From the NCBI GenBank assembly GCA_007859835.1, contig SJPJ01000001.1, positions 3,942,623 through 4,006,622 of the forward strand: DNA of 64,000 nucleotides. The letters are read 5' to 3'. Source of the DNA: Novipirellula herctigrandis. GTDB lineage: Bacteria > Planctomycetota > Planctomycetia > Pirellulales > Pirellulaceae. Position 1 is the first letter of the stretch; every line of letters begins with the position of its first letter. Under the pieces are notes generated by a model. That model was not told the DNA's origin and did not search any database. It worked only from the letters and a program-made list of their open reading frames with translations. Below, piece by piece: positions 432 to 18,682 of the stretch. The translations under genes were made by a program, and so were the position numbers.

Positions 432-569
432 TGCCAACATGGTTTTTACGCTGAGGCCTTCGGCACACCTTCGTCGTTTTGCAACGCTCGCTGGCCTTGG
501 TACAATCTCTCGTAGTTCAGGCATCGTTCGCTTCGTTTAGGGCGGTGTCGTAAAAACCTTCCGTTATGC
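432..569 (+). repeat. attC 1 (138 bp)
   Basis: Opens with TGCCAAC (432-438) and closes with GTTATGC (563-569). The inner arms GGTTTTTACG and CGTAAAAACC pair. The apical part holds TTTGCA (478-483), 17 bases, then TACAAT (501-506), a promoter-like pair facing cassette 2. Standard short subtype. Confidence 0.93.
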
Positions 570-847
570 GGCTTGAGAACTCGTTCTTGGACGGGTGCCA
601 CGTCGGGTGAACGCGTGCTGGAATTTGGTGAGCGGGGCGGTTGCTGGGATGCTGTGTCGAGGCTTACTCACGTTTGAGGCTATTTGGTTTTGGATCGGTT
701 TTGCTGCGATCGTCAAGTCGATGTTGCGCGTCTCGTCGGTTCCGGTTTCAAGCGTGTCGACTTGGCGGTAGTCCACCGGCGTCGCGGTTACGGCCGCTGC
801 AGTATTGGCTTGGCGTTGGAGCGTCGAGTTGGCATTTTGACGTTGCC
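570..847. other. Cassette 2: ORF-poor cassette, first of two near-identical copies
   Basis: The cassette body between attC 1 and attC 2 has no convincing gene. The longest frame is on the minus strand (ATG at 851, stop formed by the TTA of the opening box at 564, 95 residues), but it has no recognisable domain and runs out of the attC. Plus-strand frames of 70 and 79 residues overlap it. The same body recurs at 3637-3914 with differences only near its ends. It could carry an RNA or a promoter instead of a protein, or the minus-strand ORF may be real. Confidence 0.6.
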
Positions 848-987
848 GCATAACATGGTTTTGCCGCAAGGGCCCTTCGGGCACGCCTACGTTGGTAATT
901 CACGGGCGGCGGCGTATCATTAGCTGCTCGTAATTCAACGTCGCTCGCTTCGGTCATCACCGGCGTCGGCAAAACCTTCCGTTAGCC
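848..987 (+). repeat. attC 2 (140 bp, variant subtype)
   Basis: Opens GCATAAC (848-854), the exact complement of the GTTATGC that opens cassette 2; closes GTTAGCC (981-987). The inner arms differ from the common type (GGTTTTGCCG / CGGCAAAACC) yet still pair. TTGGTA (892-897), 17 bases, TATCAT (915-920) keeps the promoter-like spacing although the surrounding bases differ. Confidence 0.93.
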
Positions 988-998
988 GCTCGATAAAC

Positions 999-1388
999 AT
1001 GGAGCACAACCCGTACGATGCTCCCGCAGGGACGGCAGTGGATGGTTCAACATCGTTCGACCGGCGATGGTTGGCCGCGATTCCATTTGTCGCTGTCGTC
1101 GCATTGTTCGCAACACTCCCGCTGTTGTTGACGTTACTTGCGCTCTTGGCCTGCAATGCTGTCGCGTTTCTTGCACTGCTTGTCGCCCGTCAAACTACCG
1201 CTGCAAATCTGGCGTTCTTGACCGGTGTCCTTCTGGTTGCCTCCCTAATGTTCACAAACTGGGGATTCTCGATGCCGAACCCTCGGATCACCGTTTCTTG
1301 GGTTTGCCTCATTCCAGCGGTCATTGCACAACTTATACTGATTGCCTGTCCGTTTTGGTTACCACACACCCAGCGCGTCGGCGGCTAA
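999..1388 (+). CDS. Cassette 3: multi-spanning membrane protein, unknown
   Basis: 129 residues. After a polar N-terminus (about 25 residues) come hydrophobic stretches at about 27-45, 46-63, 69-85 and 100-122, suggesting three or four membrane spans. It starts 18 bases after the crossover box, and its TAA stop is supplied by the closing box GGCTAAC of its own attC. No family recognised. Confidence 0.7.
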   Translation: MEHNPYDAPAGTAVDGSTSFDRRWLAAIPFVAVVALFATLPLLLTLLALLACNAVAFLALLVARQTTAANLAFLTGVLLVASLMFTNWGFSMPNPRITVSWVCLIPAVIAQLILIACPFWLPHTQRVGG

Positions 1389-1519
1389 CATGGTTTTTAC
1401 GCTAGGCCTTCGGCACACCTTGGCTCTTTGGCAACGGGCCATGGCCTTGGTACAATCCTTTGTAGTTCAGGCATCGCTCGCTTCGTTTAGGGCGGTGTCG
1501 TAAAAACCTTCCGTTGCAC
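1383..1519 (+). repeat. attC 3
   Basis: GGCTAAC (1383-1389) is the exact complement of GTTAGCC that opens cassette 3; closes GTTGCAC (1513-1519). Promoter-like TTGGCA (1428-1433), 17 bases, TACAAT (1451-1456). Short standard subtype. Confidence 0.94.
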
Positions 1520-1531
1520 GACCACAGGTAG

Positions 1532-1912
1532 ATGGCCATACTCCTAATCCCGCTCGCGATCGTAGCGTTAGGCTGGGCCGCGTTTGCTGCCCATGGCTCG
1601 CTTCAGCGGCGTGGCGCATCGCGCGGGTGGTTCGCGGCGTTCTTCGCCCTCATGGCCGCTGGTGCTTGTACTGGCGTCTACTTCGGCTTTTTCTTTGACT
1701 ACCTCGCCGCTCCAACAGTCCGCGTATACTCGTTCCCGGTTCCGGCAGCATTCCACATACTCGAATCGTACGACGATAGCACACAGCGATGGGTCGATTT
1801 CATAACACCGGCACCAATACTGTTCGCTGGCTCCAATGTGATAATTTTTTCGTGTGCCATGGTTCTTCCCCTTTGGTTGGTCAGCGCGTTCTGGCGATTC
1901 CCCAGCGCATAG
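1532..1912 (+). CDS. Cassette 4: membrane protein, unknown
   Basis: 126 residues with hydrophobic segments at about 1-20, 33-55 and 97-120, so probably three membrane spans. ATG lies 19 bases after the crossover box. The stop is six bases before the closing box GTGCAAC. No family recognised. Confidence 0.7.
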   Translation: MAILLIPLAIVALGWAAFAAHGSLQRRGASRGWFAAFFALMAAGACTGVYFGFFFDYLAAPTVRVYSFPVPAAFHILESYDDSTQRWVDFITPAPILFAGSNVIIFSCAMVLPLWLVSAFWRFPSA

Positions 1913-1917
1913 TGGTC

Positions 1918-2054
1918 GTGCAACATGGTGTTTACGCATGGGCCTTCGGCACACCCTCGCTCTTTGTTCAAGCCGCGATCCGTTGGTACAATGTTTGGCG
2001 ATTCGACATCTTTCGCTTCGTTCAGGGCGGTGTCGTAAAAACCTTCCGTTAGGC
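1918..2054 (+). repeat. attC 4
   Basis: GTGCAAC (1918-1924) matches the opening GTTGCAC of cassette 4, and pairing extends to 13 bases (GTGGTCGTGCAAC). Closes GTTAGGC (2048-2054). TTGTTC (1964-1969), 17 bases, TACAAT (1987-1992). Confidence 0.93.
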
Positions 2055-2086: not shown

Positions 2087-3116
2087 GAGCATTTTAAAAT
2101 TTTTCATGCGACATACTCTGAGTTGCGAAAGCAGTTCAGGCAATCCTCAGCAGTGACGGCATCAATGGCTTTGGCGATCGCGTTGTAGAGTTTCCGCTCG
2201 GTGCGAACGGCGGCTCTGCGTAGATGGGACTTGATCTTTGAGAAGATCTGTTCGATTGGATTGAGATCCGGCGAGTATGGCGGCAGGAACCAGATTTCCG
2301 CGCCGGTCTGCTCAATCTTTTTGAGTACTGATGCGGTCTTGTGGCTGGAGAGGTTGTCCATCACGAGGATATCGCCAGGTCGCAACGCCGGGGCAAGAAG
2401 CCAATCGACGAATCCCTCAAACACCCACGAGTTGGTCGGGCCGTTTGTGATCATCGATGCTCGGCTGCCATGACAATCAATGGCGTGAATTAGCGTGGTC
2501 GTTTCCCAGTGGCCGTGCGGTACCGCATCCTCGACTCGCTGACACTTCGGCCCCCAACCATACAGCCGCGTCATGTTCGTTTTCGCGCCGGTCTCGTCGA
2601 GAAAGACAAGCTTTTCGATATTCAACCGCTTCTGTTGTCGCTTCCAGCAACCACGCTGCTGGCGAACGTCATCGCGACACTGCTCAGTTGCTCGCAACGT
2701 TTTTTTTGAATGAGTGGCCAAGCCTTCGAGCTTCGTTCCAGACTGTCTGTATTGTACAGTCCATGCGAAGTTTTTGACGCAACTGCTCGAGCGTCCAGGA
2801 TGGATTCTCACGGATCAACTGATCGAGCTTCTTGCTCTGCTTTTCACTGAACGCTCGTTTGCGACCACAGTGATGCGTTTGAGGTTCCAGCGTTCCCAGA
2901 TCCCGCCACTGGTACTTGAGTTTCTGAACGACCTTGTAACTGACCGAAAACCGCTCGGCGATCTTCGGCATGCTCTCCTTCCCTTCAAGAATGGCAGCCA
3001 GGATTCGTTCACGCAAATCCATGTCCAACGCTTTCATCAGTCACACCTCCGTGTTGGCGAAAACGTCAAATTAACCGATCTCCGTCAACGCACCTACATC
3101 AATTTTTCAAGTGCTC
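2087..3116 (-). mobile_element. IS630-family insertion sequence
   Basis: Flanked by TA (2085-2086 and 3117-3118), the target duplicated by IS630/Tc1-type elements. Imperfect terminal inverted repeats begin GAGCA at both ends and continue with an A/T-rich stretch. The element is about 1.03 kb and carries one transposase split over two frames. It lies inside the cassette 5 gene, opposite in orientation to it. Confidence 0.9.
2104..3037 (-). CDS. IS630-family transposase in two overlapping frames
   Basis: Frame A (3037-2684, 117 residues) holds the N-terminal helix-turn-helix half. Frame B carries the DDE catalytic half: VFLDETGAKTN (first Asp), ILVMDNLSSHK (second Asp) and PPYSPDLNPIEQ (Glu). 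The frames meet at a run of eight A (plus-strand T 2700-2707) and joining needs a +1 shift, equivalent to one extra A. Several IS630 elements use frameshifting on such runs, so this may be programmed; a disabling insertion or sequencing error is the alternative. The joined protein is about 340 residues, normal for the family. Confidence 0.88.
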
Positions 3117-3428: not shown

Positions 3429-3636
3429 GCCTAACATGGTTTTTACGCAAGGCCGCGGCTTCGTCGGTGGAGCGAATTTTGGTTTGCCATGTCATTCGCT
3501 TCGGTAACATGGAATGGTTTGCCACGCCGCGGACACCGCCTCTTTGGCAACGTGGCTTTCTTTTGGTAAACTGATTGGTGTTACGACGCTTTTTGACTTC
3601 GGAGAGAAGCGGTGTCGTAAAAACCTTCCGTTATGC
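3429..3636 (+). repeat. attC 5 (208 bp, long subtype)
   Basis: GCCTAAC (3429-3435) is the complement of GTTAGGC at 2048, 1.4 kb to the left across the IS630 insertion, which confirms that cassette 5 spans the element. Closes GTTATGC (3630-3636). About 70 bases longer than the common type in the apical part. TTGGCA (3544-3549), 17 bases, TAAACT (3567-3572). Confidence 0.93.
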
Positions 3637-3914
3637 GGCTTGAGAACTGTTTGTTGGACGGGTGCCACGTCGGGTGAACGCGTGCTGGAATTTGGTGAGC
3701 GGGGCGGTTGCTGGGATGCTGTGTCGAGGCTTACTCACGTTTGAGGCTATTTGGTTTTGGATCGGTTTTGCTGCGATCGTCAAGTCGATGTTGCGCGTCT
3801 CGTCGGTTCCGGTTTCAAGCGTGTCGACTTGGCGGTAGTCCACCGGCGTCGCGGTTACGGCCGCTGCAGTATTGGCTTGGCGTTGGAGCGTCGAGTTGGC
3901 ATTTTGACGTTGCC
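3637..3914. other. Cassette 6: second copy of the ORF-poor cassette 2
   Basis: Nearly identical to 570-847. By eye the differences cluster at the start (590-area ACTCGTTCTTGG versus ACTGTTTGTTGG) and in the 3' arm of the attC. The same overlapping frames are present. The near-identity implies recent duplication of this cassette, or capture of the same cassette twice. Confidence 0.65.
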
Positions 3915-4053
3915 GCATAACATGGTTTTGCCGCAAGGGCCCTTCGGGCACGCCTACGTTGGTAATTCACGGGCGGCGGCGTATCATTAGCTGCTCGTAA
4001 TTCAACGTCGCTCGCTTCGTTCAACAAGGCGTCGGCAAAACCTTCCGTTGGTG
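3915..4053 (+). repeat. attC 6 (variant subtype, sister of attC 2)
   Basis: GCATAAC (3915-3921) pairs with GTTATGC (3630). Closes GTTGGTG (4047-4053), whose last base departs from GTTRRRY but is matched by cassette 7's closing CACCAAC. TTGGTA (3959-3964), 17 bases, TATCAT (3982-3987). Confidence 0.93.
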
Positions 4054-4498: not shown

Positions 4499-4634
4499 CA
4501 CCAACATGGTTTTTACGCTAGGCCTTCGGCACATCTTCCTTGGTTGGTCACGCGGGCTGGTATTGGTACAATTTCTCTTAGTTTATAATCGCTCGCTTCG
4601 TTTAGGGCGGTGTCGTAAAAACCTTCCGTTGTGT
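4499..4634 (+). repeat. attC 7
   Basis: CACCAAC (4499-4505) pairs with GTTGGTG, and pairing extends to 12 bases (GTGTCCACCAAC). Closes GTTGTGT (4628-4634). TTGGTC (4544-4549), 17 bases, TACAAT (4567-4572). Confidence 0.94.
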
Positions 4635-4978: not shown

Positions 4979-5185
4979 ACACAACATGGTTTTTACGCTA
5001 GTCGCGGCTGTCGTCGGTGGAGAGTTTTTCGATGGGCAAAGTCAATCGCTTCGGTCACGTTACCACTGGTGCCAGCCCGCGAACGCCTACGATCTTTGGC
5101 AACGGGCGTTCTGCTGGTACAATGTCTGGTGTGCGACGTTTTCCGCTTCGGTCAGAAACGGCGTCGTAAAAACCTTCCGTTGTGT
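4979..5185 (+). repeat. attC 8 (207 bp, long subtype)
   Basis: ACACAAC (4979-4985) pairs with GTTGTGT (4628); closes GTTGTGT (5179-5185). The apical part contains an extra arm of about 70 bases shared with attC 15 and 18. TTGGCA (5096-5101), 16 bases, TACAAT (5118-5123). Confidence 0.93.
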
Positions 5186-5526: not shown

Positions 5527-5663
5527 ACACAACATGGTTTTTACGCTAGGCCTTCGGCACACCTTCCTTGGTTGGTCACGCGGGCTGGCATTGGTACAAT
5601 CTCTCGTAGTTTAGGCATCGCTCGCTTCGTTTAGGGCGGTGTCGTAAAAACCTTCCGTTAGGC
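5527..5663 (+). repeat. attC 9
   Basis: ACACAAC (5527-5533) pairs with GTTGTGT (5179), extending to 11 bases (GGTCACACAAC). Closes GTTAGGC (5657-5663). TTGGTC (5572-5577), 17 bases, TACAAT (5595-5600). Confidence 0.94.
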
Positions 5664-5673
5664 GACCTATCGA

Positions 5674-6012
5674 ATGATTAAGTATCCGGGTGGCACGATC
5701 GCATTTTGGTCTGTTGTGTACATCCTCGTGGCAACCCCGCTCGCCTATAGTAAATTTGCGGACGGCAAGTTCGGACTCGGTTTCTTGGTCGCAACGTTAC
5801 CAATCGGTTGTGCGTTGATCTGGTTCCGTGTTCGTCCAGTAAAATGGCTGGTTGCCACCTATCTTGGATTGGCGGCGCTCAGGGCCATTGCGCTGCTGTT
5901 TACTGACGGGCTAGATCTCGAACCTGCGCTGGGTGCAGCATTGGGGGCGTATACCGCGTTCCAATTTGCCGTTTGGGATGGTGGACCAAGCTCAGGTTCA
6001 CCGGTCGCCTAA
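5674..6012 (+). CDS. Cassette 10: multi-spanning membrane protein, unknown
   Basis: 112 residues with hydrophobic stretches at about 7-26, 33-50, 57-75 and 83-100, suggesting four spans. The stop TAA (6010-6012) is part of the closing box GCCTAAC of the attC, so the attC completes the reading frame. No family recognised. Confidence 0.7.
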   Translation: MIKYPGGTIAFWSVVYILVATPLAYSKFADGKFGLGFLVATLPIGCALIWFRVRPVKWLVATYLGLAALRAIALLFTDGLDLEPALGAALGAYTAFQFAVWDGGPSSGSPVA

Positions 6013-6142
6013 CATGGTTTTACGCTAGGCCTTCGGCACACCTTCCATGTTTTGCAACGCGGGCTGGCCTTGGTACAATTTCTCGTAGTTCAGACATCGT
6101 TCGCTTCGTTCAGGGCGGTGTCGTAAAAACCTTCCGTTAGGC
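6007..6142 (+). repeat. attC 10
   Basis: GCCTAAC (6007-6013) pairs with GTTAGGC (5657); closes GTTAGGC (6136-6142). TTTGCA (6051-6056), 17 bases, TACAAT (6074-6079). One T fewer in the left inner arm (GGTTTTACG). Confidence 0.94.
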
Positions 6143-6146: not shown

Positions 6147-6608
6147 ATGACCGAATCCGAATTCATCGCTGAGCTAACCGGTGCCCTCGACGGGCAATCT
6201 GACGCCGCGCGTACTCAGATTCCGCTGCTGCTTGCATCGTTGCCCGACGCTGCAACACGCCTCGACCTGCAAATCTTCCCCGCACAGGACGGCGACGGCT
6301 TTTTCACGGTTCGCGCCTCGGTCGACGGCCCCAACCTGTACGTCATCAACAAATCCATCGACGCACACGCCGACCTTTTCGACGCGAAATACACCGAAGA
6401 TGGCGTCCAGCCCCCAATTCCAATCGTGGACTGCTTTGACGTGGATTATCCCGTCAACGACATCGTGGTCGATTGCGCCGCGAAATGGTTGCAAACCGTC
6501 TGGCACTCCTTTGGCGACATCAAATGTAATATTCCGGTCGTAGTCGTTGGCCACGATGATTATGGGACTGTCACGCCAATCGAACTCCACTCTGGCGCTG
6601 CCGCATAA
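6147..6608 (+). CDS. Cassette 11: soluble acidic protein, unknown
   Basis: 153 residues, acidic, without membrane segments. It starts five bases after the crossover box, and its TAA stop lies in the closing box. The overall look (MTESEFIAELTGAL..., then alternating hydrophobic strands such as DLQIFPAQDGDGFFTVRASV) could fit a small conserved domain seen in other bacteria, possibly DUF6389, but I cannot confirm this from sequence alone. Confidence 0.65.
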   Translation: MTESEFIAELTGALDGQSDAARTQIPLLLASLPDAATRLDLQIFPAQDGDGFFTVRASVDGPNLYVINKSIDAHADLFDAKYTEDGVQPPIPIVDCFDVDYPVNDIVVDCAAKWLQTVWHSFGDIKCNIPVVVVGHDDYGTVTPIELHSGAAA

Positions 6609-6742
6609 CATGGTTTTTACGCTGAGGCCCTTCGGGCACACCTTCCATCTTTGGCAACGCGGGCTGGCCTTGGTACAATCTTCCGTAGTTCAGGCATCGT
6701 TCGCTTCGTTCAGGGCGGTGTCGTAAAAACCTTCCGTTGGGC
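6603..6742 (+). repeat. attC 11
   Basis: Closing box GCATAAC (6603-6609) has one mismatch to the complement of the opening GTTAGGC (6136). Right box GTTGGGC (6736-6742). TTGGCA (6651-6656), 17 bases, TACAAT (6674-6679): the closest match to a sigma-70 promoter in the array. Confidence 0.92.
6651..6679 (+). promoter_or_regulatory. Promoter-like pair inside attC 11 facing a toxin-antitoxin cassette (representative)
   Basis: TTGGCA and TACAAT are separated by 17 bases, matching sigma-70 consensus at four of six (-35, TTGACA would differ at one G) and five of six (-10) key positions. The predicted start would fall near 6686, and the leader would contain only the right arm of the attC, so it could not fold the full attC hairpin. 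The pair recurs in almost every attC. Activity is inferred, not shown. Confidence 0.6.
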
Positions 6743-7281: not shown

Positions 7282-7418
7282 GCCCAACATAGTTTTCACG
7301 CAATGGCCTACGGCACACCTTCACTTTTTGGCGACAGTGGCTGGCCTTGGTAGAATCAACCGTAATTCAGACTCGCTCGCTTCGTTTTGGGCGGTGTCGT
7401 AAAAACCTTCCGTTGTGC
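7282..7418 (+). repeat. attC 12
   Basis: GCCCAAC (7282-7288) pairs with GTTGGGC (6736), extending to 11 bases. Closes GTTGTGC (7412-7418). Left inner arm is slightly altered (AGTTTTCACG). TTGGCG (7328-7333), 17 bases, TAGAAT (7351-7356). Confidence 0.92.
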
Positions 7419-7901: not shown

Positions 7902-7943
7902 GGTTCGCACAACATGGTTTTTACGCTAGGCCTCCGGCACACC

Positions 7944-9192
7944 CAGGGCAACTCACTTTTTGAATCTGGATAAGAGTTTTAGTAGATCGGTTGGCTTGGT
8001 GGCGAAGGTTCGAAGGGCGGTGGCGATCCCACTGTGTCCCGCGTCGCGAAGAAACGTCAGGCTGGCGTTGCGAAGGCATGCCAGATTTACCGGACCATGC
8101 CCAGTGCGGGCACGACACTTGTCCTCGCCCATTGTCACATCACGCACCCAGTGCAATCGATTCTCGATGCCCCAGTGGCCGCGATTCAAATCCAGAAGAT
8201 GCTTCGCATTGGCTCGATCGGGTCCCAGGCTGGTGATCGCGTGAGAAACTTCCGTTACCCGTTCGTCGCCGGTGATCCGCGTTCGCTCGATGCGAATCGC
8301 TTGGGCAAAGCCTGGCCAGTCAAGAAAGCCACCGAGTCGGCTGCTGGACTGAAGATGGCGAATCTCAATTCGCCCATGCCCTTTGTCGACATCGCGAACC
8401 TCGTCAAGCTGCTGACGGCGAAGACGTTCGCTGTAGGGGGGAAAGGCCGGGATTGAAGTCCGACTTGACAGTCTTGTTCAACTCCGGCTGGTTGTCTTTG
8501 ACAGTAATGAGATAGTCGCCGCCAGAATCAATGATCTGCTGACAGAGTTTCCTCTGGCAGAACATGGCGTCACCAGTAATCACCATGCCATCGACAATCA
8601 ACGACTTAAGCAACAGCATGGCGGTTCGATGCTCGTTTGTTTTGGGATTCATTTTCAATTGAGCCAGCACACCGCCGGAGGCGTGTTCGAGCAAGGAAAG
8701 CAGGTGAATGCTCTGTCCATGTGGTTGCAGCGTAGCACACAGCGTTTTGCCGTCGATCGCGACTCCACGGTGCTTCTCTGCTGTCGGTTTTTCACCGAGT
8801 CGATGCTGAGCCCACTGAGAGATGGCGTTCTCTAGCGTTTCCGGTGGAAGGTCGATCAGCAACGACCGATAGCAATTGGCCGTCGGAGGCTTGCGGCCAA
8901 AACCGATCGCGTGCCAAAAGCTGGGTTCTTGATTGCGAATCCACTGCGCAATGGCGGTGCAACCGGTAGCGCCGGTGAGCAGGCCACAGATAGTCGCCGC
9001 CAGCATGGCAGCTAAAGAATGGCGTCGTCCCTTCCGCCCGCGAGGATCTGGAATCGCCGCCAAAATGGCGAGCAATTCCCCGTCTGCGGGATTGGTCACT
9101 GAGATATCTCCGTAAGGTTAAATGCACTCCGTTAATGCAACGAACCAATACTACGCATCAGATAACCTAAAATCAAACACTGAGTTGCCCTG
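7944..9192 (-). mobile_element. ISAs1-family insertion sequence inside attC 13
   Basis: Perfect 12-base terminal inverted repeats CAGGGCAACTCA (7944-7955 and, inverted, 9181-9192), with weaker matching inward. The element is flanked by a perfect 10-base target duplication CCGGCACACC (7934-7943 and 9193-9202), the length reported for this family. Length about 1.25 kb, normal for ISAs1. Confidence 0.93.
7953..9099 (-). pseudogene. ISAs1-family transposase, frameshifted
   Basis: N-terminal frame 9099-8404 (ends FNPGLSPLQRTSSPSAA) contains the family landmarks IPDPRGRKGRRHSL, VAIDGKTL and ITGDAMFCQ. The remainder continues without stops in another frame from about 8440 to 7953 (PYSERLRRQQLDEVRDVDKGHGRIE... 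through NRGHWGIENRLHWVRDVTMGED). The break lies at a run of six G on the plus strand (8436-8441); one base fewer restores a full protein. The element is probably dead, unless the base is a sequencing error. Confidence 0.88.
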
Positions 9193-9326
9193 CCGGCACA
9201 CCGCTGTCGTTTGTTCGATCCTCCCTCTGCTGGTAGAATCACTCGTTGTTCAAACTTGAATGGCATCGCAACGGCGGTGTCGTAAAAACCTTCCGTTGGG
9301 CGGCACCGCTCGAAAGGCAATCCGCT

Positions 9327-9783: not shown

Positions 9784-9920
9784 GCCCAACATGGTTTTTA
9801 CGCTAGGCCTTCGGCACACCTTCCTTGGTTAGTCACGCGGGCTGGCACTGGTACAATCTCTCGTAGTTCAAGCATCGCTCGCTTCGTTCAGGGCGGTGTC
9901 GTAAAAACCTTCCGTTAGCG
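9784..9920 (+). repeat. attC 14
   Basis: GCCCAAC (9784-9790) pairs with GTTGGGC (9295) across the whole cassette, extending to 13 bases (GGTGCCGCCCAAC). Closes GTTAGCG (9914-9920). TTAGTC (9829-9834), 17 bases, TACAAT (9852-9857). Confidence 0.93.
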
Positions 9921-10500: not shown

Positions 10501-10709
10501 CGCCAACATGGTTTTTACGCACAGTCGCGGATGTCGACGTTGGAGAATCTTTCGGTGGGAGAAGTTAAGTCGCTTCGGTCGCGTTCCCACTGGTGCCAGC
10601 CCGCGAACGCCTACGATCTTTGGCAACGAGCGTTCTGTTGGTACAATGTTTGGTGTGCGACGCTTTCCGCTTCGATCAGAAACGGGGTCGTAAAAACCTT
10701 CCGTTGGAC
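10501..10709 (+). repeat. attC 15 (209 bp, long subtype)
   Basis: CGCCAAC (10501-10507) has one transition against the complement of GTTAGCG (9914), but flanking pairing extends to 12 bases with that single mismatch. Closes GTTGGAC (10703-10709). TTGGCA (10620-10625), 16 bases, TACAAT (10642-10647). Confidence 0.92.
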
Positions 10710-10717: not shown

Positions 10718-11005
10718 CTAAATGTTGTCCAGATCGCGTTCGCCCCTGACGATGCGGATAATCTCGACCTCATCGCCCAGCCCTCGAAAGAAAATCACGT
10801 AGTTACCGCAACTGAAGCTGCGACACGCTCCGTGATTCTTGGAAATCCGCCGCTGGCCCGTCTCTGGATTCACCGCCAACGTCTGACACGCTGCTTCGAT
10901 TTTCTCTACCCAGCGGTAAGCAGCTTCCGGCTTGTCACGTGCAATGAACTCTGAGTTCTCGTACAAATCAGACGACGCCAGCTTGGAGTATCTGACTTTT
11001 CCCAT
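10718..11005 (-). CDS. Cassette 16 toxin, ParE-like
   Basis: 95 residues: MGKVRYSKLASSDLYENSEFIARDKPEAAYRWVEKIEAACQTLAVNPETGQRR then SFSCGNYVIFFRGLGDEVEIIRIVRGERDL. The IARDKPEAA and GNYVIFFR motifs place it in the ParE family, whose members poison DNA gyrase. Antiparallel to the array, downstream of its antitoxin, and one base overlaps. Confidence 0.9.
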   Translation of the reverse strand: MGKVRYSKLASSDLYENSEFIARDKPEAAYRWVEKIEAACQTLAVNPETGQRRISKNHGACRSFSCGNYVIFFRGLGDEVEIIRIVRGERDLDNI

Positions 11006-11247
11006 TATGACTGCCGTTCTTCGATGGCTTTGATACGCCGACGGGCTTCAGCGTATACCTCATCTGCATCAATTCCTTCACCACGATCTAGCTCGTCGAT
11101 TCCGGCTTGAATATCTGCATGCAGCGTTTCGCGAGCAATCACTAACCGAATGCCCTCATTGACAACTGCTTGCTCGTCTTGAAACTTTCCTTGTGCAATC
11201 AACTGCTGCACTTGGTTTCCGTAGTCGTTCGGGATATCTGTGCTCAT
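11005..11247 (-). CDS. Cassette 16 antitoxin, ParD-like
   Basis: 80 residues: MSTDIPNDYGNQVQQLIAQGKFQDEQAVVNEGIRLVIARE, a ribbon-helix-helix DNA-binding N-terminus, then an acidic tail (GIDELDRGEGIDADEVYAEARRR) that wraps the toxin. Transcribed right to left from the attC 16 side. Confidence 0.9.
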   Translation of the reverse strand: MSTDIPNDYGNQVQQLIAQGKFQDEQAVVNEGIRLVIARETLHADIQAGIDELDRGEGIDADEVYAEARRRIKAIEERQS

Positions 11248-11269: not shown

Positions 11270-11405
11270 GTCCAACATGGTTTTTACGCTAGGCCTGCGG
11301 CACACCTTCGATGTGGTGCAGACCTCGCTTCCATTATACAATGCATCCTAATTCAATCCACCTTCGCTTCGGTTGCGTCGGCGACGTAAAAACCTTCCGT
11401 TAGAC
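11270..11405 (+). repeat. attC 16 (subtype tied to reversed ParDE cassettes)
   Basis: GTCCAAC (11270-11276) pairs with GTTGGAC (10703), extending to 12 bases. Closes GTTAGAC (11399-11405). The forward -10-like TACAAT (11337-11342) has no TTG box 17 bases upstream. On the minus strand TATAAT (11338 to 11333) faces the cassette 16 antitoxin. Confidence 0.93.
11333..11338 (-). promoter_or_regulatory. Minus-strand -10-like TATAAT in attC 16, facing the reversed toxin-antitoxin operon
   Basis: The plus-strand ATTATA reads TATAAT on the minus strand, about 86 bases before the antitoxin start at 11247. There is no good -35 (GTGGAT at 17-base spacing). The equivalent hexamer occurs in attC 17 (TACAAT), 19 (TATAAT), 20 (TATAAT) and 21 (TATGAT). 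Function is inferred from position. Confidence 0.5.
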
Positions 11406-11409: not shown

Positions 11410-11694
11410 TCAGAGTTTGGTGACGTTGCGGTCACCGGTGATCACTCGCAGAATTTCCACCGTGTCGTCGTGTTTGCGATGAAAAATGACATAACGCCCA
11501 ACGAAGTTGCAACGCACCTCCCTTCCCAACTGCGGACGACGTTCTCCCATCTCTGGCTGCGACGCAATTAGAAGGCACTTTTCTTCAATCATTTCGACCC
11601 ATGCCACGGCTGCTTCCGGCTTGTCCTGGGAAATATGCCGCAGGATGCCCACTAAATCCTGCTGCGCCGCCGTGGTGTATAGCGGCTTCTTCAT
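11410..11694 (-). CDS. Cassette 17 toxin, ParE-like
   Basis: 94 residues: MKKPLYTTAAQQDLVGILRHISQDKPEAAVAWVEMIEEKCLLIASQPEMGERRPQL then NFVGRYVIFHRKHDDTVEILRVITGDRNVTKL. ParE family by the ISQDKPEAA and GRYVIFHR motifs. Overlaps the antitoxin stop by four bases. Confidence 0.9.
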   Translation of the reverse strand: MKKPLYTTAAQQDLVGILRHISQDKPEAAVAWVEMIEEKCLLIASQPEMGERRPQLGREVRCNFVGRYVIFHRKHDDTVEILRVITGDRNVTKL

Positions 11695-11936
11695 TCACCT
11701 GCCGCTTTTGCAGCCATCGCCTTCAATTGTCCGAACACTGTGTCATGATCGTGCAGTTCGCCGTTATCGGCTTGGTCAATTCCAATCTGAACGGCTTCGC
11801 GCAGCTTCTCGTTGGACACCAGCAAACGTACGCCCTCGGAGACGGCCTCTTGCACTGAACCAAACCTGCCAGTGCTGACCAATGCCTCAATAGCTGATCG
11901 TTGATCTTGCGGTAATTGGATGTCCATCTTGCTCAC
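11691..11936 (-). CDS. Cassette 17 antitoxin, ParD-like
   Basis: 81 residues: MSKMDIQLPQDQRSAIEALVSTGRFGSVQEAVSEGVRLLVSNEK (ribbon-helix-helix) and an acidic C-terminus. Start may be the M at residue 4. Same family and arrangement as cassettes 16, 19, 20 and 21. Confidence 0.9.
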   Translation of the reverse strand: MSKMDIQLPQDQRSAIEALVSTGRFGSVQEAVSEGVRLLVSNEKLREAVQIGIDQADNGELHDHDTVFGQLKAMAAKAAGE

Positions 11937-11964: not shown

Positions 11965-12102
11965 GTCCAACATGGTTTTTATGCAAAGGCCTGCGGGCAC
12001 ACCTGCGATGTGGTGTTCGCCTCGCTCCTATTGTACAATGAAATCTAATTCGATCCACCTTCGCTTCGGTTGCGTCGGTGTCGTAAAAACCTTCCGTTGT
12101 GC
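11965..12102 (+). repeat. attC 17 (reversed-ParDE subtype)
   Basis: GTCCAAC (11965-11971) has one transition against the complement of GTTAGAC (11399). Closes GTTGTGC (12096-12102). The centre is a perfect palindrome ATTGTACAAT (12030-12039), giving TACAAT on both strands. Confidence 0.92.
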
Positions 12103-12125
12103 GGACTAGATGGTATAATTGAACC

Positions 12126-12362
12126 ATGACCACAATGAATGAAATCCTGACCGCTGCACAGTCGCTCCCATCTTCGCAGCGTGCTCAGTTGATTGCTGCC
12201 CTTTGGGATGACGTTTCGCCTACCGATTGGGTACCGCCCGATGCTCAGTGGGTTACCGAGGCCAATCGCCGAAGCGATTTGTACGATTCTAATGAAATGA
12301 CCGGTGCCCCTTGGGCTGAGGTTCGCGAGCGCGCCCGACGGAAGGCTGGGCTTGATGGCTAA
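12126..12362 (+). CDS. Cassette 18 antitoxin, addiction-module component type
   Basis: 78 residues; M4 is an alternative start. LTAAQSLPSSQRAQLIAALWDDV, then PPDAQWVTEANRRSDLYDSNEMTGAPWAEVRERARRK, as in cassettes 12 and 15. Its end overlaps the toxin start by eight bases. Confidence 0.85.
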   Translation: MTTMNEILTAAQSLPSSQRAQLIAALWDDVSPTDWVPPDAQWVTEANRRSDLYDSNEMTGAPWAEVRERARRKAGLDG

Positions 12363-12652: not shown

Positions 12653-12861
12653 GCACAACATGGTTTTTACGCAAGGTCGCGGCTGTCGTCGTTGGAGAGT
12701 CTTTCGGTTGGCAAACATCAATCGCTTCGGTCGTGTTCCCTCTGGTGTAATCCCGCGAACGCCTACGATCTTTGGCAATGTGCGTTCTGTTGGTACAATG
12801 TTTGGTGTGCGACGTTTTCAGCTTCGTTGAGAAACGGTGTCGTAAAAACCTTCCGTTAGGT
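12653..12861 (+). repeat. attC 18 (209 bp, long subtype)
   Basis: GCACAAC (12653-12659) pairs with GTTGTGC (12096). Closes GTTAGGT (12855-12861). TTGGCA (12772-12777), 16 bases, TACAAT (12794-12799). Shares the extra apical arm with attC 8 and 15. Confidence 0.93.
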
Positions 12862-12865: not shown

Positions 12866-13149
12866 CTAGATTCTTGGATTGTCAACGTCGCCTCGGATGA
12901 TGCGCACAATTTCCACAAACCCATCACGGCGTCGGAAGAATATCACATAGTTGCCAAAATAGGTGGACCGGATTCCTTCGCCCAATTCTGGACGCTCATC
13001 TCCGATCTCTGGGTGCTGTGACGCGAGACGGCATTTCTCGCGAAGCTTGGAAACCCATTGCCGTGCAGCGTCAGGCTTATCGTTGGCAATGAATCGAGCG
13101 ATTGTTTCAAATCGTCTTTCGATTGTGCGGAATACCGAAGCCTCGGCAT
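12866..13149 (-). pseudogene. Cassette 19 toxin, ParE-like, frameshifted
   Basis: Begins MPRLRYSAQSKDDLKQ in frame, then shifts. The rest of a ParE toxin is intact in the next frame: ARFIANDKPDAARQWVSKLREKCRLASQHPEIGDERPELGEGIRSTYFGNYVIFFRRRDGFVEIVRIIRGDVDNPRI, stop at 12866. One missing A near 13101-13109 (CAATC where CAAATC would read QIA) explains it. The toxin is therefore inactive while its antitoxin is intact. Confidence 0.88.
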
Positions 13150-13150
13150 A

Positions 13151-13399
13151 TCAGCTTCCCTGCTGTGTGGATTCCACCCTGTCGATTTCCGCGATCACTT
13201 CGGCGAACACCGATTCTTCATCGAAATGCTGACCTTTATCCAACTGGTTAATGCCACGCTGGACTTCGGCTTTCAATTGTTCACGTCCCATTAGCATCCG
13301 GATGCCTTCAATAATCGCCGCTTCTTCTGAATCGAATCGACCGTCAGAAACTAACGATTTGACAAAAGCATTGATGTCACTTGGCAAATTGAGATTCAT
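13151..13399 (-). CDS. Cassette 19 antitoxin, ParD-like
   Basis: 82 residues from ATG at 13399: MNLNLPSDINAFVKSLVSDGRFDSEEAAIIEGIRMLMGREQLKAEVQRGINQLDKGQHFDEESVFAEVIAEIDRVES. Ribbon-helix-helix ParD form. It now accompanies a broken toxin, so it might act as an orphan antidote to related ParE toxins nearby (inference). Confidence 0.9.
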   Translation of the reverse strand: MNLNLPSDINAFVKSLVSDGRFDSEEAAIIEGIRMLMGREQLKAEVQRGINQLDKGQHFDEESVFAEVIAEIDRVESTQQGS

Positions 13400-13423
13400 C
13401 TCTTCACTCCAATGGGCCGGGGC

Positions 13424-13563
13424 ACATAACATGGTTTTACGCAAGGCCCGTTCGGGGACATCTTCGGCGTGGTTTCGACCGCGTTTCCATTATACAATCA
13501 AATCCCTATTCAGACCATCTTCGCTTCGGTGGCGAAGATGTCGTAAAAACCTTCCGTTCTACG
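13424..13563 (+). repeat. attC 19 (reversed-ParDE subtype)
   Basis: ACATAAC (13424-13430), one mismatch to the complement of GTTAGGT (12855). Closes GTTCTAC (13557-13563), which departs from GTTRRRY. Forward TACAAT (13493-13498); minus-strand TATAAT (13494 to 13489) facing the antitoxin. Confidence 0.91.
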
Positions 13564-13565: not shown

Positions 13566-13853
13566 CTAGATGTTTCGCATGTCACGATTGCCGTGAATGA
13601 CGCGAGCCACCTCTATGCCGCCTTCGATCGCGCGGTAGAAGATCACGTAGTTGCCAACGCTGAATGAGCGGGCTCCTAGCACACCAAATCTTGGCCGCAG
13701 CTCGCCCATCGCAGGCTGGGTCGCAATTGTTTCGCACGTCTCCTGAATCTTGCGCAACCAATTGCGTGCTGCCTCTGGCTTATCCCTCGCGATATACTGA
13801 ACAATGCCGAATAGATCGTCGTCCGCCTCCGGTGCGTAGATGACACTTGCCAT
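13566..13853 (-). CDS. Cassette 20 toxin, ParE-like
   Basis: 95 residues: MASVIYAPEADDDLFGIVQYIARDKPEAARNWLRKIQETCETIATQPAMGELRP then SFSVGNYVIFYRAIEGGIEVARVIHGNRDMRNI. Intact ParE. Start overlaps the antitoxin stop by one base. Confidence 0.9.
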   Translation of the reverse strand: MASVIYAPEADDDLFGIVQYIARDKPEAARNWLRKIQETCETIATQPAMGELRPRFGVLGARSFSVGNYVIFYRAIEGGIEVARVIHGNRDMRNI

Positions 13854-14095
13854 TAGTCTTTGCCATTCTCAATTTCTCGAATTCGGGCTTCCGCGCGGCG
13901 GTAGACATCTTCGGCTGGAACACCCTTTCCGGCGTCCAATTGATCAAATCCCTTTTGTACTTCAGCGTGAAGCGTTTCCCTTGCCTGCAACAGACGCAAC
14001 CCTTCGGCAAGCACATCGGACTCGTTCAGGAACCTCTTTTCGGAGACCATTCGTTGTACGAATGGGACTAAATCGCTTGGGATTTCTGTTGTCAT
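13853..14095 (-). CDS. Cassette 20 antitoxin, ParD-like
   Basis: 80 residues: MTTEIPSDLVPFVQRMVSEKRFLNESDVLAEGLRLLQARETLHAEVQKGFDQLDAGKGVPAEDVYRRAEARI. ParD ribbon-helix-helix plus acidic tail, close in form to the cassette 16 antitoxin. Confidence 0.9.
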   Translation of the reverse strand: MTTEIPSDLVPFVQRMVSEKRFLNESDVLAEGLRLLQARETLHAEVQKGFDQLDAGKGVPAEDVYRRAEARIREIENGKD

Positions 14096-14135: not shown

Positions 14136-14274
14136 GTAGAACATGGTTTTTACGCAAGGCCCCTTCGGGTACATCTTCGGCGTAGATTCGGCCGCGTCTC
14201 CATTATACAATCAAATCAAATTCAGAACATCTTCGCTTCGGTTGCGACGGTGTCGTAAAAACCTTCCGTGTGTG
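14136..14274 (+). repeat. attC 20 (reversed-ParDE subtype, defective crossover box)
   Basis: GTAGAAC (14136-14142) is the exact complement of the unusual opening GTTCTAC, a covarying pair extending to 11 bases. The right box reads GTGTGT (14268-14273) where GTTGTGT is expected from cassette 21's closing ACACAAC: one T of the crossover GTT is missing. Forward TACAAT (14206-14211); minus-strand TATAAT (14207 to 14202). Confidence 0.9.
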
Positions 14275-14277: not shown

Positions 14278-14562
14278 CTAGAGTGAACGGATGTCTCGAT
14301 CACCTGCGATGACGCGTGCGACTTCGATACCGTTCTCGATTGGCCTAAAGAAAATCACGTAACGACCAACAACGCTGCTGCGAATCTCTGCACCGTATTC
14401 CGGACGTCGCTCTCCAAACTTTGGAGTCTCCGCGATGAGCTTGCACTTCTCTTCAATCTTCTCAACCCAATTCGCCGCTGCAATCGGTTTGTCACGTGCG
14501 ATGTAATCGTAGATATCCGACAAATCCTGTTGTGCGGCCGGTGCAATGATCAGCGTTGCCAT
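14278..14562 (-). CDS. Cassette 21 toxin, ParE-like
   Basis: 94 residues: MATLIIAPAAQQDLSDIYDYIARDKPIAAANWVEKIEEKCKLIAETPKFGERRPEYGAEIRSSVVGRYVIFFRPIENGIEVARVIAGDRDIRSL. Intact ParE. One-base overlap with the antitoxin. Confidence 0.9.
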   Translation of the reverse strand: MATLIIAPAAQQDLSDIYDYIARDKPIAAANWVEKIEEKCKLIAETPKFGERRPEYGAEIRSSVVGRYVIFFRPIENGIEVARVIAGDRDIRSL

Positions 14563-14804
14563 TATTCAGCTGACTCCAATCCCTTCTTCGCCCGGGCCCG
14601 CAATTCGCTGAATACGACTTCCCCGTCGATCCCCTTACCTGCGTCCAACTCATCAATTCCTTTTTGAATTTCCGCGGCCAACTGTTGCTGACTCTTTAAC
14701 AGCTGGACTCCAGCAGCAACTGCCGCTTCTGGCGAGTCAAACTTCCCAGATGCTACCAAACCTTCTACGAACTGCATTGAATCCGGGCTAAGCTGTACAT
14801 TCAT
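14562..14804 (-). CDS. Cassette 21 antitoxin, ParD-like
   Basis: 80 residues: MNVQLSPDSMQFVEGLVASGKFDSPEAAVAAGVQLLKSQQQLAAEIQKGIDELDAGKGIDGEVVFSELRAR. ParD family; transcribed from the attC 21 side. Confidence 0.9.
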   Translation of the reverse strand: MNVQLSPDSMQFVEGLVASGKFDSPEAAVAAGVQLLKSQQQLAAEIQKGIDELDAGKGIDGEVVFSELRARAKKGLESAE

Positions 14805-14833: not shown

Positions 14834-14970
14834 ACACAACATGGTTTTTACGCAATGGCCTTCGGCACACCTACGACGTGGTGCTGGCCTCGCTCTCATC
14901 ATACAATGAAATCTTTATCAAGCCACCTTCGCTTCGGTTGCGTCGGTGTCGTAAAAACCTTCCGTTGGCC
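14834..14970 (+). repeat. attC 21 (reversed-ParDE subtype)
   Basis: ACACAAC (14834-14840), extended to GGGTCACACAAC, pairs with the damaged box at 14268. Closes GTTGGCC (14964-14970). Forward TACAAT (14902-14907); minus-strand TATGAT (14903 to 14898). Confidence 0.91.
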
Positions 14971-15594: not shown

Positions 15595-15730
15595 GGACAA
15601 CACGGTTTTTACGTTAGGCCTTCGGCACGCCGCCCGTTTGTTGTTCGGCGCTCGCTGGGGTGGTAAACTTGTTCGCAATTCAAGCCGTTCACCAATGGAG
15701 TGGCGGTGGCGTCAAAACCTTCCGTTGTGT
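15595..15730 (+). repeat. attC 22 (variant subtype)
   Basis: GGACAAC (15595-15601), one mismatch to the complement of GTTGGCC (14964). Closes GTTGTGT (15724-15730). Divergent centre, but TTGTTC (15641-15646), 17 bases, TAAACT (15664-15669) is kept. Confidence 0.9.
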
Positions 15731-15804: not shown

Positions 15805-17283
15805 GTGAATAGAAGATTGTTGACAGTGATGTTATTTGCACTAGCGTCGTGCCTGCTCACGACTCCTGCATTGGCAAGTGGCCAGGGGAGACCCAACATC
15901 GTGGTTATCATGGCCGACGACCTCGGCTATGCCGACGTTGGTTTCCAGGGGTGCAAGGATATTCCAACACCGAACATAGACGAACTTGCGACCAGTGGCG
16001 CTCGGTTCTCGCAGGGCTATGTGACTGGATGCATGTGCGGTCCATCTCGCGCTGGCTTTATTACCGGTCGTGTGCAGTCAACGTTTGGCTATTACGTGAA
16101 TGCCAGTCAACCTCTCAATCCGAAAGAGGGCTTGCCGGCCGGGATCAAAACGGTTGCACATGACATGCAGGTTCAGGGGTACGTCACCGGCGGTGTCGGC
16201 AAGTGGCACATGGGAACTGCGAATCATCAACTCCCTCGCGTAATGGGATACTCTGATTGGTTTGGCTTCTATGGCGGCGGGCTGATGTACTTCCCGCTTG
16301 ATCATTCATCATATAACGGCCGCTATTTCGAAAAGAAAAAGCCTTGGGGTGTACGTGACATGCATCACACGCTGCCGCTGCTTCACAATGGCACGCAAGT
16401 CGAGTGGGATCAGTACCTGACGCGCGAGCTGACCGATGGTGCCATTCGATTCATCGAAAAGAACCGCGAGAAACCTTTTTTTCTATTCATGTCGTACAAC
16501 GCACCCCATGAATATCTCGAAGCACCGGAGGAAACGATCGCTAAGTATCCAGCGGAATTGATGACAAAGGTCCCCGGCGTACTTCCGAAGAGCCGGTCGG
16601 TCTACGGCGCCATGGTTGACGAGATGGATCAGGGCATCGGGCGTTTGACAAAAACTCTCGACAAGCTGGACCTTACCGACAACACGGTGGTCTGGTTCTT
16701 GAGCGACCACGGGGGACTAAAACGAACCAGTGACAATCGACCGCTGCGTGGCGCGAAGGGCAATGCCTACGAAGGCGGATTGCGAGTGCCCTTTGTGGTC
16801 CGCTGGCCGTCGCAAGTGCAGCCGGGAACGGTGCTGGATCATCCAGTGACTTCCCTCGACATCGGGGCAACGGCGATGGCTCTTGCAGGTGGCAGCGTCA
16901 AACAATCCGGTCTGCACGGGGTCGACATCACCGATTATATGAAAGGGAATACAACCAAACCTCCCCACGAAGCACTCTACTGGCACACCGGCCGCCGTCC
17001 CCAGGACATCACTGGAGTGTTGCGTGAAGGCGACTATAAGATGATTGTGACTCGCGGCGATGTCGAATTGTTCCACATCAAAGACGATCCGACAGAGTCC
17101 CATGATCTTGCCGGCGCTCAACCGCAACGCGCCGAGCGGATGTTGGCACTTTGGAAAACTTGGAACGAATCCAACAGTCCACCGTTGTGGAAAAAGGGGA
17201 CGGGCGGCGGCGAAGATGATTATCAGTATGCCGACTACGAATGGCTCAAAGGCACACCACATTACCGGATTAAGAACGAGTAG
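15805..17283 (+). CDS. Secreted formylglycine-dependent sulfatase (cassette position 23)
   Basis: 492 residues from GTG 15805. Signal peptide about 1-25 (MNRRLLTVMLFALASCLLTTPALASG). Metal ligands D38-D39 in IMADDLGYAD. The CGPSR motif (C78-R82) is the sulfatase C-x-P-S-R signature, where Cys is oxidised to formylglycine. Other landmarks are KWHMG and FLSDHGG. It would cleave sulfate esters, probably from a sulfated polysaccharide, in the periplasm or outside; the substrate is not readable. The flanking boxes do not match each other (GTTGTGT versus GCCTAAA), so it may not be a simple cassette gene. At 1.5 kb it is by far the largest gene in the array. Confidence 0.93.
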   Translation: MNRRLLTVMLFALASCLLTTPALASGQGRPNIVVIMADDLGYADVGFQGCKDIPTPNIDELATSGARFSQGYVTGCMCGPSRAGFITGRVQSTFGYYVNASQPLNPKEGLPAGIKTVAHDMQVQGYVTGGVGKWHMGTANHQLPRVMGYSDWFGFYGGGLMYFPLDHSSYNGRYFEKKKPWGVRDMHHTLPLLHNGTQVEWDQYLTRELTDGAIRFIEKNREKPFFLFMSYNAPHEYLEAPEETIAKYPAELMTKVPGVLPKSRSVYGAMVDEMDQGIGRLTKTLDKLDLTDNTVVWFLSDHGGLKRTSDNRPLRGAKGNAYEGGLRVPFVVRWPSQVQPGTVLDHPVTSLDIGATAMALAGGSVKQSGLHGVDITDYMKGNTTKPPHEALYWHTGRRPQDITGVLREGDYKMIVTRGDVELFHIKDDPTESHDLAGAQPQRAERMLALWKTWNESNSPPLWKKGTGGGEDDYQYADYEWLKGTPHYRIKNE

Positions 17284-17367
17284 AACCGATCGCACGCCAC
17301 GCAAATGAGTGTCAACGAAGTTCGAGGCAATTTCGCAATTCTTCACCTGTCTCTGGTGTTCCGTGCC

Positions 17368-17509
17368 GCCTAAAATGGTTTTTACGCTAGGCCTTTGGCA
17401 CACCTTTCCTGTTTGGCGACGCGGGCTGGCATTGGTACAATTCCTGTTAGTCTAGACTCGCTCGCTTCGTTCAGGGCGGTGACGCAAAACCTTCCGTTAG
17501 CCGTTAGCC
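17368..17509 (+). repeat. attC 23 (damaged left box, duplicated right box)
   Basis: Left box GCCTAAA (17368-17374) lacks the final C and would pair with GTTAGGC, not with the GTTGTGT at 15724. The right end has GTTAGCC twice in tandem (17496-17502 and 17503-17509). TTGGCG (17413-17418), 17 bases, TACAAT (17436-17441). Confidence 0.88.
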
Positions 17510-17513
17510 GCCA

Positions 17514-17936
17514 ATGTCCGTTGTAACAACTCTCAACCTCATGGGGCATACCGAAGCAGCGCTGCGTCACTACCAAGACGCCCTTGGTGCTGAAACTCTC
17601 TTCTTGATGCGGTTTCGTGAATCTCCAGATCAGTCACACACACGCGCTGGCATGGAAGACCTGATTTTCCACGCAACGTTTCGCGTATTGGACACAGTCA
17701 TCATGGCAAGCGACGTCGGATACGAAGACTCCGACTCTAAACCAACGTTCGCGGGCTTCTCTCTTGCGTTGCAGATGGATTCGCCGGTCGTTGCCAAACG
17801 CGCCTTCGACGCACTGGCCGATCAAGGGCAGGTTGTGGTTCCGTTCGCCGAATCAAAATTCACTTCGTGGTATGGAATTGTGATTGATCGTTTTGGTGTC
17901 TCGTGGAAACTGAATGTCAACGCGACTGGCGGTTAA
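17514..17936 (+). CDS. Cassette 24: VOC-fold protein, PhnB-like
   Basis: 140 residues. Glyalase/VOC superfamily of the PhnB type: NLMGHTEAALRHYQDALGAETLFLMRF, then the second paired beta-alpha-beta-beta-beta module around VVAKRAFDALADQGQVVVPFAESKFTSWYGIVIDRFGVSWKLN. Typical metal-binding positions are not clear, so it may bind a ligand or catalyse an unknown reaction. Its TAA stop lies in the closing attC box. Confidence 0.85.
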   Translation: MSVVTTLNLMGHTEAALRHYQDALGAETLFLMRFRESPDQSHTRAGMEDLIFHATFRVLDTVIMASDVGYEDSDSKPTFAGFSLALQMDSPVVAKRAFDALADQGQVVVPFAESKFTSWYGIVIDRFGVSWKLNVNATGG

Positions 17937-18067
17937 CATGGTTTTTACGCTAGGCCTGCGGCACACTTTCCAAGTTTGGCAACGCGGGCTGACATTGATA
18001 CACTTTCCGGTAATTCAGACTCGCTCGCTTCGTGCAGGGCGGTGTCGAAAAAAACCTTCCATTGTGC
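17931..18067 (+). repeat. attC 24 (right box mutated)
   Basis: GGTTAAC (17931-17937), one mismatch to the complement of GTTAGCC. The right box ATTGTGC (18061-18067) has lost the crossover G. TTGGCA (17976-17981), 17 bases, TACACT (17999-18004). Confidence 0.89.
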
Positions 18068-18097
18068 GACGCAGGTTTCTCCGATTGCAGGCCCGTC

Positions 18098-18484
18098 ATG
18101 TCCGAACCCTCATTTGAATCCGCATCACCTTACAAAAATGACGTTCTCGCATTGCCCGTTTCTGATCTTGATGCTGCCTCAGAATGGTACTGCAAACACT
18201 TTGGCATGACCGAAATCGAACGCCCAGACGCGCCGAAGCCCGCTGTCATCCTTGAACGCGATGGCGTCCAGATCGGTTTCGCCATCATTGGTGGTGATCC
18301 ATCTGAAGCGGGTGCTGCAATTCGTGTCAATGACATTGACGGCATCAAGGCACAACTCGAATCCAATGGCGTTGGTGTTGCAAACATCCGCGTCGACGAA
18401 CGCGACGGTGAGAAGTTCAACGTATTCTTTGTTGTCGCCCCGGACGGGCTTTGCTACTACTTCAACGAACCAATTGCTGGTTGA
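18098..18484 (+). CDS. Cassette 25: VOC-fold protein, glyoxalase/bleomycin-resistance type
   Basis: 128 residues from ATG 18098. LALPVSDLDAASEWYCKHFGMTEIERPDAPKPAVILERDGVQIGFAI and AAIRVNDIDGIKAQLESNGVGVANIRVDERDGEKFNVFFVVAPDGLCYYFNEP show the two-module VOC fold, with a late Glu in the FNEP position often used as metal ligand. A role in detoxification or resistance is possible but not shown. Confidence 0.87.
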   Translation: MSEPSFESASPYKNDVLALPVSDLDAASEWYCKHFGMTEIERPDAPKPAVILERDGVQIGFAIIGGDPSEAGAAIRVNDIDGIKAQLESNGVGVANIRVDERDGEKFNVFFVVAPDGLCYYFNEPIAG

Positions 18485-18546
18485 CCGAATGCTCCCTGTC
18501 GCTTGCGGTCGATCTCTGATGGATGCCTAAAAGGCGGTTCCGCGTC

Positions 18547-18682
18547 CCACAACATGTTTTTACGCAGAGGCCTTCAGGCACAACTTCACCGTTTGTTGTT
18601 CCAGCTTCCTTGGGGTGGTAAACTTGCCTATGGTGCAAACCGTTTTCCAATGTTGGGACGATGTCGTAAAGCCCCGTTGGCT
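18547..18682 (+). repeat. attC 25 (decaying)
   Basis: CCACAAC (18547-18553), one mismatch to the complement expected from TTGTGC. Arms shortened (ATGTTTTTACG and GTCGTAAAGCCCC). Closes GTTGGCT (18676-18682). TTGTTC (18596-18601), 17 bases, TAAACT (18619-18624). Confidence 0.87.

Follow-up and report, generated by a model that had tools for sequence, protein, structure and literature searches.

The attC recombination sites of a long cassette array in Novipirellula herctigrandis very probably contain sigma70 promoters that are oriented to match the gene abutting each site, as judged from the sequence of a 64,000-nucleotide (nt) stretch of its 9.5 Mb genome (hereafter the window; G000:C1:3942623-4006622) and of related arrays. 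According to the mechanism that we propose, the centre of the attC would act as a housekeeping sigma70-type promoter, with a TTG -35 element, a spacer of 17 bases, an extended -10 (TGn) and a TAnnnT -10 element. In the common subtypes, this promoter would point out of the right side of the attC and drive the next cassette; in a subtype termed E and a second form termed H, the -10 box would face left, into the attC's own cassette with its reversed gene. Each attC would thus supply a promoter for the abutting gene, and the array would consist of successive, independently transcribed units instead of one operon under the promoter Pc. The sequence elements themselves, their constraint, position and spread, and their match to gene orientation are observed; from these, we infer that RNA polymerase would start at the attC boxes, that the boxes are kept for that reason, and that cassette expression may be independent of Pc.

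The array begins about 37 kb upstream of the window and comprises 73 intact attCs, 28 of them in the stretch L008, 21 in L009 and 24 in the window, where together with one site split by an insertion sequence they span positions 433-18678. The sites begin with AACATGGTTTTTACG, end with CGTAAAAACCTTCCGTT, and fall into a short size class of about 128-132 nt and a long one of about 200 nt. All 73 intact sites show the imperfect inverted repeat of an attC, with AAC on the left, GTT on the right and a variable centre, and the arms pair in bottom-strand folds. The outer core sites R'' and R' are complementary in a cassette-specific manner, since the two ends of a cassette match each other better than they match those of other cassettes, and in 53 of 67 cassettes the complementarity runs unbroken for at least 9 bases from GTT. 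In these 53 cassettes of L008, L009 and the window, the complementarity extends over 9-13 bases; the textbook core site, at seven bases, is shorter. Clustering at 80% divides the 73 attCs into 14 groups, among which the spacer sequences differ.

The motif TTGNNN-(16 or 17 bases)-TANNNT is present in 63 of the 73 intact attCs, and in none of the 73 on the reverse strand. By chance, 4.5 sites on average and at most 10 would carry it, as estimated from 40 dinucleotide-shuffled sets of 73 attCs, and only 1.2% of 2000 random 132-nt stretches carried the motif. A chance origin was thus rejected by the shuffles, the reverse strand and the random stretches alike. Within the window, 18 of the 24 intact attCs have the motif, as does the surviving right half of the split site, which gives 19 of 25. 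An earlier note on this DNA had listed twenty, one too many, as attC 14 (9785-9916, plus strand) has TACAAT with the TG extension, but TTA in place of TTG at the -35 position, and its nearest TTGNNN lies 21 bases from TACAAT. The five remaining exceptions, attC 16, 17, 19, 20 and 21, constitute the single subtype E (TACAAT, no TTG).

All motif copies in the window lie on the plus strand. TTGGCA-17-TACAAT was found in attC 3 (1387-1515; motif 1428-1456) and attC 11 (6607-6738; 6651-6679), and TTGGCA-16-TACAAT in the long attC 8 (4983-5181; 5096-5123), attC 15 (10505-10705; 10620-10647) and attC 18 (12657-12857; 12772-12799). TTGCAA-16-TACAAT lies in attC 1 (436-565; 479-506) and attC 10 (6011-6138; 6052-6079), and TTGGTC-17-TACAAT in attC 7 (4503-4630; 4544-4572) and attC 9 (5531-5659; 5572-5600). 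Single copies are those of attC 4 (1922-2050; 1964-1992, TTGTTC-17-TACAAT), the long attC 5 (3433-3632; 3544-3572, TTGGCA-17-TAAACT), attC 12 (7286-7414; 7328-7356, TTGGCG-17-TAGAAT), attC 23 (17372-17498; 17413-17441, TTGGCG-17-TACAAT) and attC 24 (17935-18063; 17976-18004, TTGGCA-17-TACACT). The right half of the split attC 13 (~7911-9297), read directly, has TTGTTC at 9211 and, after 17 bases, TAGAAT at 9234 (motif 9211-9239). The two examples that the earlier note had quoted are correct: TTGGTA-17-TATCAT starts at 892 in attC 2 (852-983; 892-920), which is of subtype D and belongs to a gene-less cassette, and at 3959 in attC 6 (3919-4049; 3959-3987), and TTGTTC-17-TAAACT starts at 15641 in attC 22 (15599-15726; 15641-15669) and at 18596 in attC 25 (18551-18678; 18596-18624). 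Its statement that the motif always occupies the same relative place is true of the distance from the right end (TANNNT 61-69 nt away), but fails as a fraction of length, since the boxes lie near the hairpin apex of the short attCs and at 0.56-0.67 of the length, away from the centre, in the four window attCs of about 200 nt.

We then surveyed the relatives. The right arm, with at most 2 mismatches allowed, was searched for in 199 genomes of the family; at least 28 genomes had places among the matches listed, and the arrays were then fetched. A search of named genomes with an extended right arm returned 37 stretches, including records of Rhodopirellula, Rubripirellula, Neorhodopirellula and other planctomycetes. 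A de novo attC finder based on arm pairing yielded mostly noise and was dropped. Since the attCs of the relatives were gathered by their arms alone, which by design excludes sites with other arms, the centre had no influence on the choice of the resulting 342 unique attCs from 29 genomes and 14 genera (duplicates and N-containing sites were removed). The sigma70 geometry of a TTG -35 and a TAnnnT -10, 16-18 bp apart, was present in 269 of the 342 attCs, and the reverse strand showed it in 1 of the 342. In 319 sites, the distance of TANNNT from the right end is 61-69 bases. Among the 266 attCs with TTG 16-18 bases from this placed TANNNT, the spacer is 17 bases in 254, 16 in 9 and 18 in 3, and the flanks vary in length (left part 38-47 or 109-115, right part 56-63). 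The -10 reads TACAAT in 154 of these sites, TAGAAT in 57, TAAACT in 18 and TATCAT in 11, with rarer others, and is extended by TG in 243. Moreover, 219 of the 342 attCs match the TTGACA/TATAAT consensus at nine or more of 12 positions, versus 10 of 3420 random stretches. The first sequence logo presupposed TANNNT and was not counted as evidence for its three fixed bases.

The boxes are also the most constrained part of the centre. In the largest cluster of relatives (216 attCs, 27 genomes), the 46 central columns have a mean divergence of 0.21 and the six key promoter columns 0.028, which differs from random central six-column sets with p=9e-5, the limits of the central region having been chosen after the profile was seen, and from all columns of the variable terminal structure (VTS) with p=0.009. 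The ten most conserved central columns all fall in the -35, TGn or -10. When a template of the same geometry was slid along the site, the promoter position gave the lowest value (0.028), and the runner-up gave 0.039.

The best surviving alternative, although improbable, is that common descent, or the fold required for recombination, has left the boxes as a by-product and that they drive no transcription. In its favour, all of the attCs are homologous, and other VTS blocks (CACACC, GCTTCG and GGCGGTGT among them) are equally conserved, in their case probably because of folding. However, descent or folding would have to leave near-fixed boxes (divergence 0.005-0.074 in the main cluster) beside a variable spacer (mean 0.25) and flanks (up to 0.55), and to keep the spacer length while its sequence differs between subtypes. 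In addition, when 220 attCs were folded, TTG and TA..T proved to be the least paired central segments, with unpaired fractions in the bottom strand of 0.66 and 0.71, compared with 0.41 for the spacer and 0.11-0.16 for the arms. Both elements are thus mostly unpaired and pairing does not account for them, and a structural explanation of TTG and TA..T by pairing was rejected.

Canonical attCs, as far as tested, also manage without the motif. The same genome contains a canonical integron about 2.65 Mb away, with its IntI at G000:C1:1251272 (384 bits, over the family cut-off) and its array in L050. It resembles the present array in its tandem cassettes with AAC...GTT recombination sites, but its own attCs are about 90 nt long and of other sequence, and its integrase bears the IntI-specific insertion. 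The motif and the inner TANNNT are both absent from all nine complete L050 sites. In three relatives, an automatic count near IntIs (three of six loci tried) gave 14 canonical attC-like sites, none of which has the motif on either strand, while two have an inner TANNNT with no -35. Thus, in this small sample of 23 canonical attCs from the same and related genomes, where the motif occurs in 0, the promoter element belongs to the attC family of the arrays, and not to attCs generally.

On the plus strand, subtype E has TACAAT but no TTG, and its minus strand bears a TATAAT-like box, which is exactly TATAAT in 18 of 23 E-type attCs (12 genomes). We scored the open reading frames (ORFs) in 294 cassettes, retaining repeated ones, by a codon model derived from 21 long window ORFs. 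In the first calling, a reversed gene was assigned to 19 of 20 cassettes with an E-type attC versus 7 of 230 with a TTG-type attC; three of those seven calls concern the gene-less D cassette, taken as reversed at three places, two more are ambiguous, and one E-like site of L152 had been typed as TTG. We therefore preferred a strict orientation rule, which kept 240 of the 294 cassettes and dropped 54. Under this rule, 21 of 22 reversed cassettes have a minus-strand TANNNT (at least 5 of 6 matches) in their own attC, versus 4 of 218 forward ones (Fisher p=4e-25, without correction for descent). The lone reversed exception, in L134, has TTGACA-16-TACAGT in the 75 nt before its own attC, a match sought after the fact.

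In the window, all five E-type attCs have the minus-strand -10 facing reversed genes on the same strand. It reads TATAAT in attC 16 (11274-11401; box 11333-11338, towards genes at 10718-11247), attC 19 (13428-13558; box 13489-13494, towards 12943-13444) and attC 20 (14140-14270; box 14202-14207, towards 13566-14095, which is outside the 240 strict calls), TACAAT in attC 17 (11969-12098; box 12030-12035, towards 11410-11936) and TATGAT in attC 21 (14838-14966; box 14898-14903, towards 14278-14804). ParE_toxin (PF05016) is matched by 10718-11005, 11410-11694 and 14278-14562, and ParD_antitoxin (PF03693), at its cut-off, by 11691-11936, all on the minus strand. One of the cassettes behind an E-type attC is toxin-antitoxin-like but forward, and it carries a TGGTATAAT of its own immediately upstream of a possible start codon (window 12099-12130). 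The second attC form, H, occurs in two cassettes of L134 and one of L137, the latter outside the strict calls; its minus-strand box lies elsewhere in the site and the genes are again reversed. Since the genes of the two L134 cassettes have relatives in cassettes with E-type attCs elsewhere, we read the match between box direction and gene orientation as having arisen at least twice.

This match also bears on two further alternatives. One, which we consider somewhat less probable than a by-product of descent or folding, is that the promoter is real but mainly serves recombination, with transcription helping to expose or extrude the single strand and expression being secondary. An attC is used as a folded single strand, and the boxes of the short attCs lie near the hairpin apex, both of which fit this idea. 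However, the boxes are off centre in the attCs of about 200 nt, yet their distance from the right end is unchanged, and box direction tracks gene orientation. The remaining one, a promoter-resembling binding site of another protein, is the least likely, since the strong TTG with weak last three bases, the TGn, the TA..T and the 17-base spacing follow the sigma70 profile and such a site gives no reason for the direction to change with gene orientation, even if a two-box site of fixed spacing also suits a dimeric binder.

Promoters that start transcription within the attC would also fit the short leaders. The distance from GTT to the first possible start codon has a median of 16 nt in forward cassettes, and this codon follows the -10 by 70-80 nt (quartiles); true leaders may be longer, as the start codon is taken to be the first possible one. 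Given this short gap, the promoter of a forward gene must sit largely in the preceding attC. The transcript would begin with about 50 nt of attC and a short cassette leader; it would hold only the right attC arm, and the full hairpin could not form, much as the earlier note had supposed. That note had also read each attC as a promoter for the next cassette, which is well supported by the box constraint, the near-constant 17-base spacer, the occurrence in 14 genera and the absence from the 23 canonical attCs, but it overlooked the box in the five E-type attCs of the window that faces the opposite way, into their own reversed genes.

The host appears to have a suitable sigma factor. The factor encoded in L206 has KFSTYATWWIRQAITR in region 2.4 and RERVRQIESKAVRKLQQPYR in region 4.2, stretches that we take to resemble those of the Escherichia coli protein. 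Several observations nevertheless weigh against promoter function. The score of this factor with the RpoD model, 346 bits, is under the curated cut-off of 354, and the region upstream of 16S shows no such motif, so that no host promoter served as a positive control; the window also holds no tRNA. TANNNT is missing at its usual place in 23 of the 342 attCs, most of which have the box one base off, and three of which, in L153, have it just beyond the range. The -35 of subtype B (TTGTTC) matches the consensus at only 3 of 6 positions, and the minus-strand boxes of the 23 E-type attCs have no TTG at 16-18 bases; 17 bp from the -10, this strand reads RTG (T 0.91, G 1.0, first base not T; n=23). The middle bases of the -10 are conserved yet often paired (unpaired fraction 0.38). 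The sharp picture of constraint derives from the centre of the main cluster, and a cluster-weighted alignment of all 342 attCs, which is less clear, places the six key columns no higher than ranks 14 to 58 of 92; in this weighting, single divergent members count as much as large clusters. Finally, most of the reversed genes are ParD/ParE-like, so that independent orientation events are few, and the attCs share descent and repeated cassettes were kept, which means that the counts and p-values overstate independence.

The recombinase encoded beside the array is also distinct from a canonical IntI, a point missed by the earlier note. This 501-residue protein (L008:1224-2729), with a Phage_integrase domain, is encoded in the same direction as the cassettes and matches TIGR02249 in two pieces only, of 98.7 and 92.2 bits (cut-off 265). 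In 11 other arrays, from 10 genomes, a relative with 38-58% identity (hits of at least 38% counted, overlapping loci merged) is encoded at a distance of about 0.75-1.5 kb from the right end of the first attC, co-directional with the cassettes in nine arrays and opposite in two (L157 and L156). When the adjacent recombinase and seven relatives were aligned with five canonical IntIs, all eight lacked the insertion that is present in all five; the array recombinases instead carry a C-terminal extension of about 100 residues. This insertion-less tyrosine recombinase family was observed beside the arrays at L008:1224-2729, L195, L160, L137, L140, L162, L155 and L157. By these comparisons, the array thus lacks one defining feature of integrons, an adjacent IntI with the family-specific insertion. 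We lean, if only slightly, towards a separate class of cassette arrays within one bacterial family, which would be moved by an insertion-less tyrosine recombinase, whose attCs would double as orientation-matched promoters, and which would need no single Pc.

Some further features of the array were observed. The gene-less cassette with a D-type attC and a 286-nt body recurs at window positions 566-983 and 3633-4049 and in L008 and L009, amounting to six bodies of 286 nt and eight D-type attCs in the array, and by eye it also opens the array as the first cassette. Of two insertion sequences, the one at 7953-9099, presumably ISAs1-like, splits attC 13, and the one at 2104-3037, presumably IS630-like, sits within a cassette. 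Decayed attC-like remnants, including one left arm, seem to extend beyond the last intact site, at 19594-20650, one of them with TTGGTAAACT.

Integrons are known in this group, with Rhodopirellula baltica mentioned in one study (PMC3108266) and Planctomycetes in another (PMC2426708). The nearest precedent that we found is a hybrid promoter at the junction of cassettes 20 and 21 in Vibrio sp. DAT722, downstream of which the transcript is about 40-fold more abundant (Michael and Labbate 2010, PMC2945992). As described there, its -35 lies in an attC and is shared with a number of other attCs of the array, while its -10 lies in cassette 21 and in no other cassette, and the authors regarded the promoter as unique within the array. 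The likeness is a sigma70-type promoter bridging an attC junction; in contrast, both boxes here are inside the attC and recur in 63 of 73 sites. Gene-less cassettes of Vibrionaceae bear promoters in sedentary arrays, some of them antisense (PMC11014356, 2024), and are similar in that promoters are scattered along the array, but those, as described, are tied to particular cassettes, and not to the recombination site. ORF-less cassettes from an oral metagenome also bear promoters, and the integrase there can be co-oriented with the cassettes (PMC6557892, 2019), but these cassette-borne promoters, as described, are not part of the attC and not array-wide; further cassette-borne promoters are listed in a review (PMC8876359). 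In their available portions, none of PMC2945992, PMC11014356, PMC6557892 and PMC8876359 describes a promoter as a standing part of the attC. A search of titles and abstract openings, with most subscription journals outside its coverage, likewise found nothing that presents promoters as a regular component of attCs, and by title no transcription start-site maps of planctomycetes.

How cassettes distant from Pc are expressed is an old question for long arrays. That box direction goes with gene orientation suggests selection on these attCs for expression, and not for recombination alone. If attCs are indeed promoters, the recombination site itself would solve the expression of distant cassettes, as a gene would be expressed wherever it lands. 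This would remove the position effect that underlies the textbook integron model, and would make the array, instead of a reservoir, a collection of genes that are each expressed on their own.

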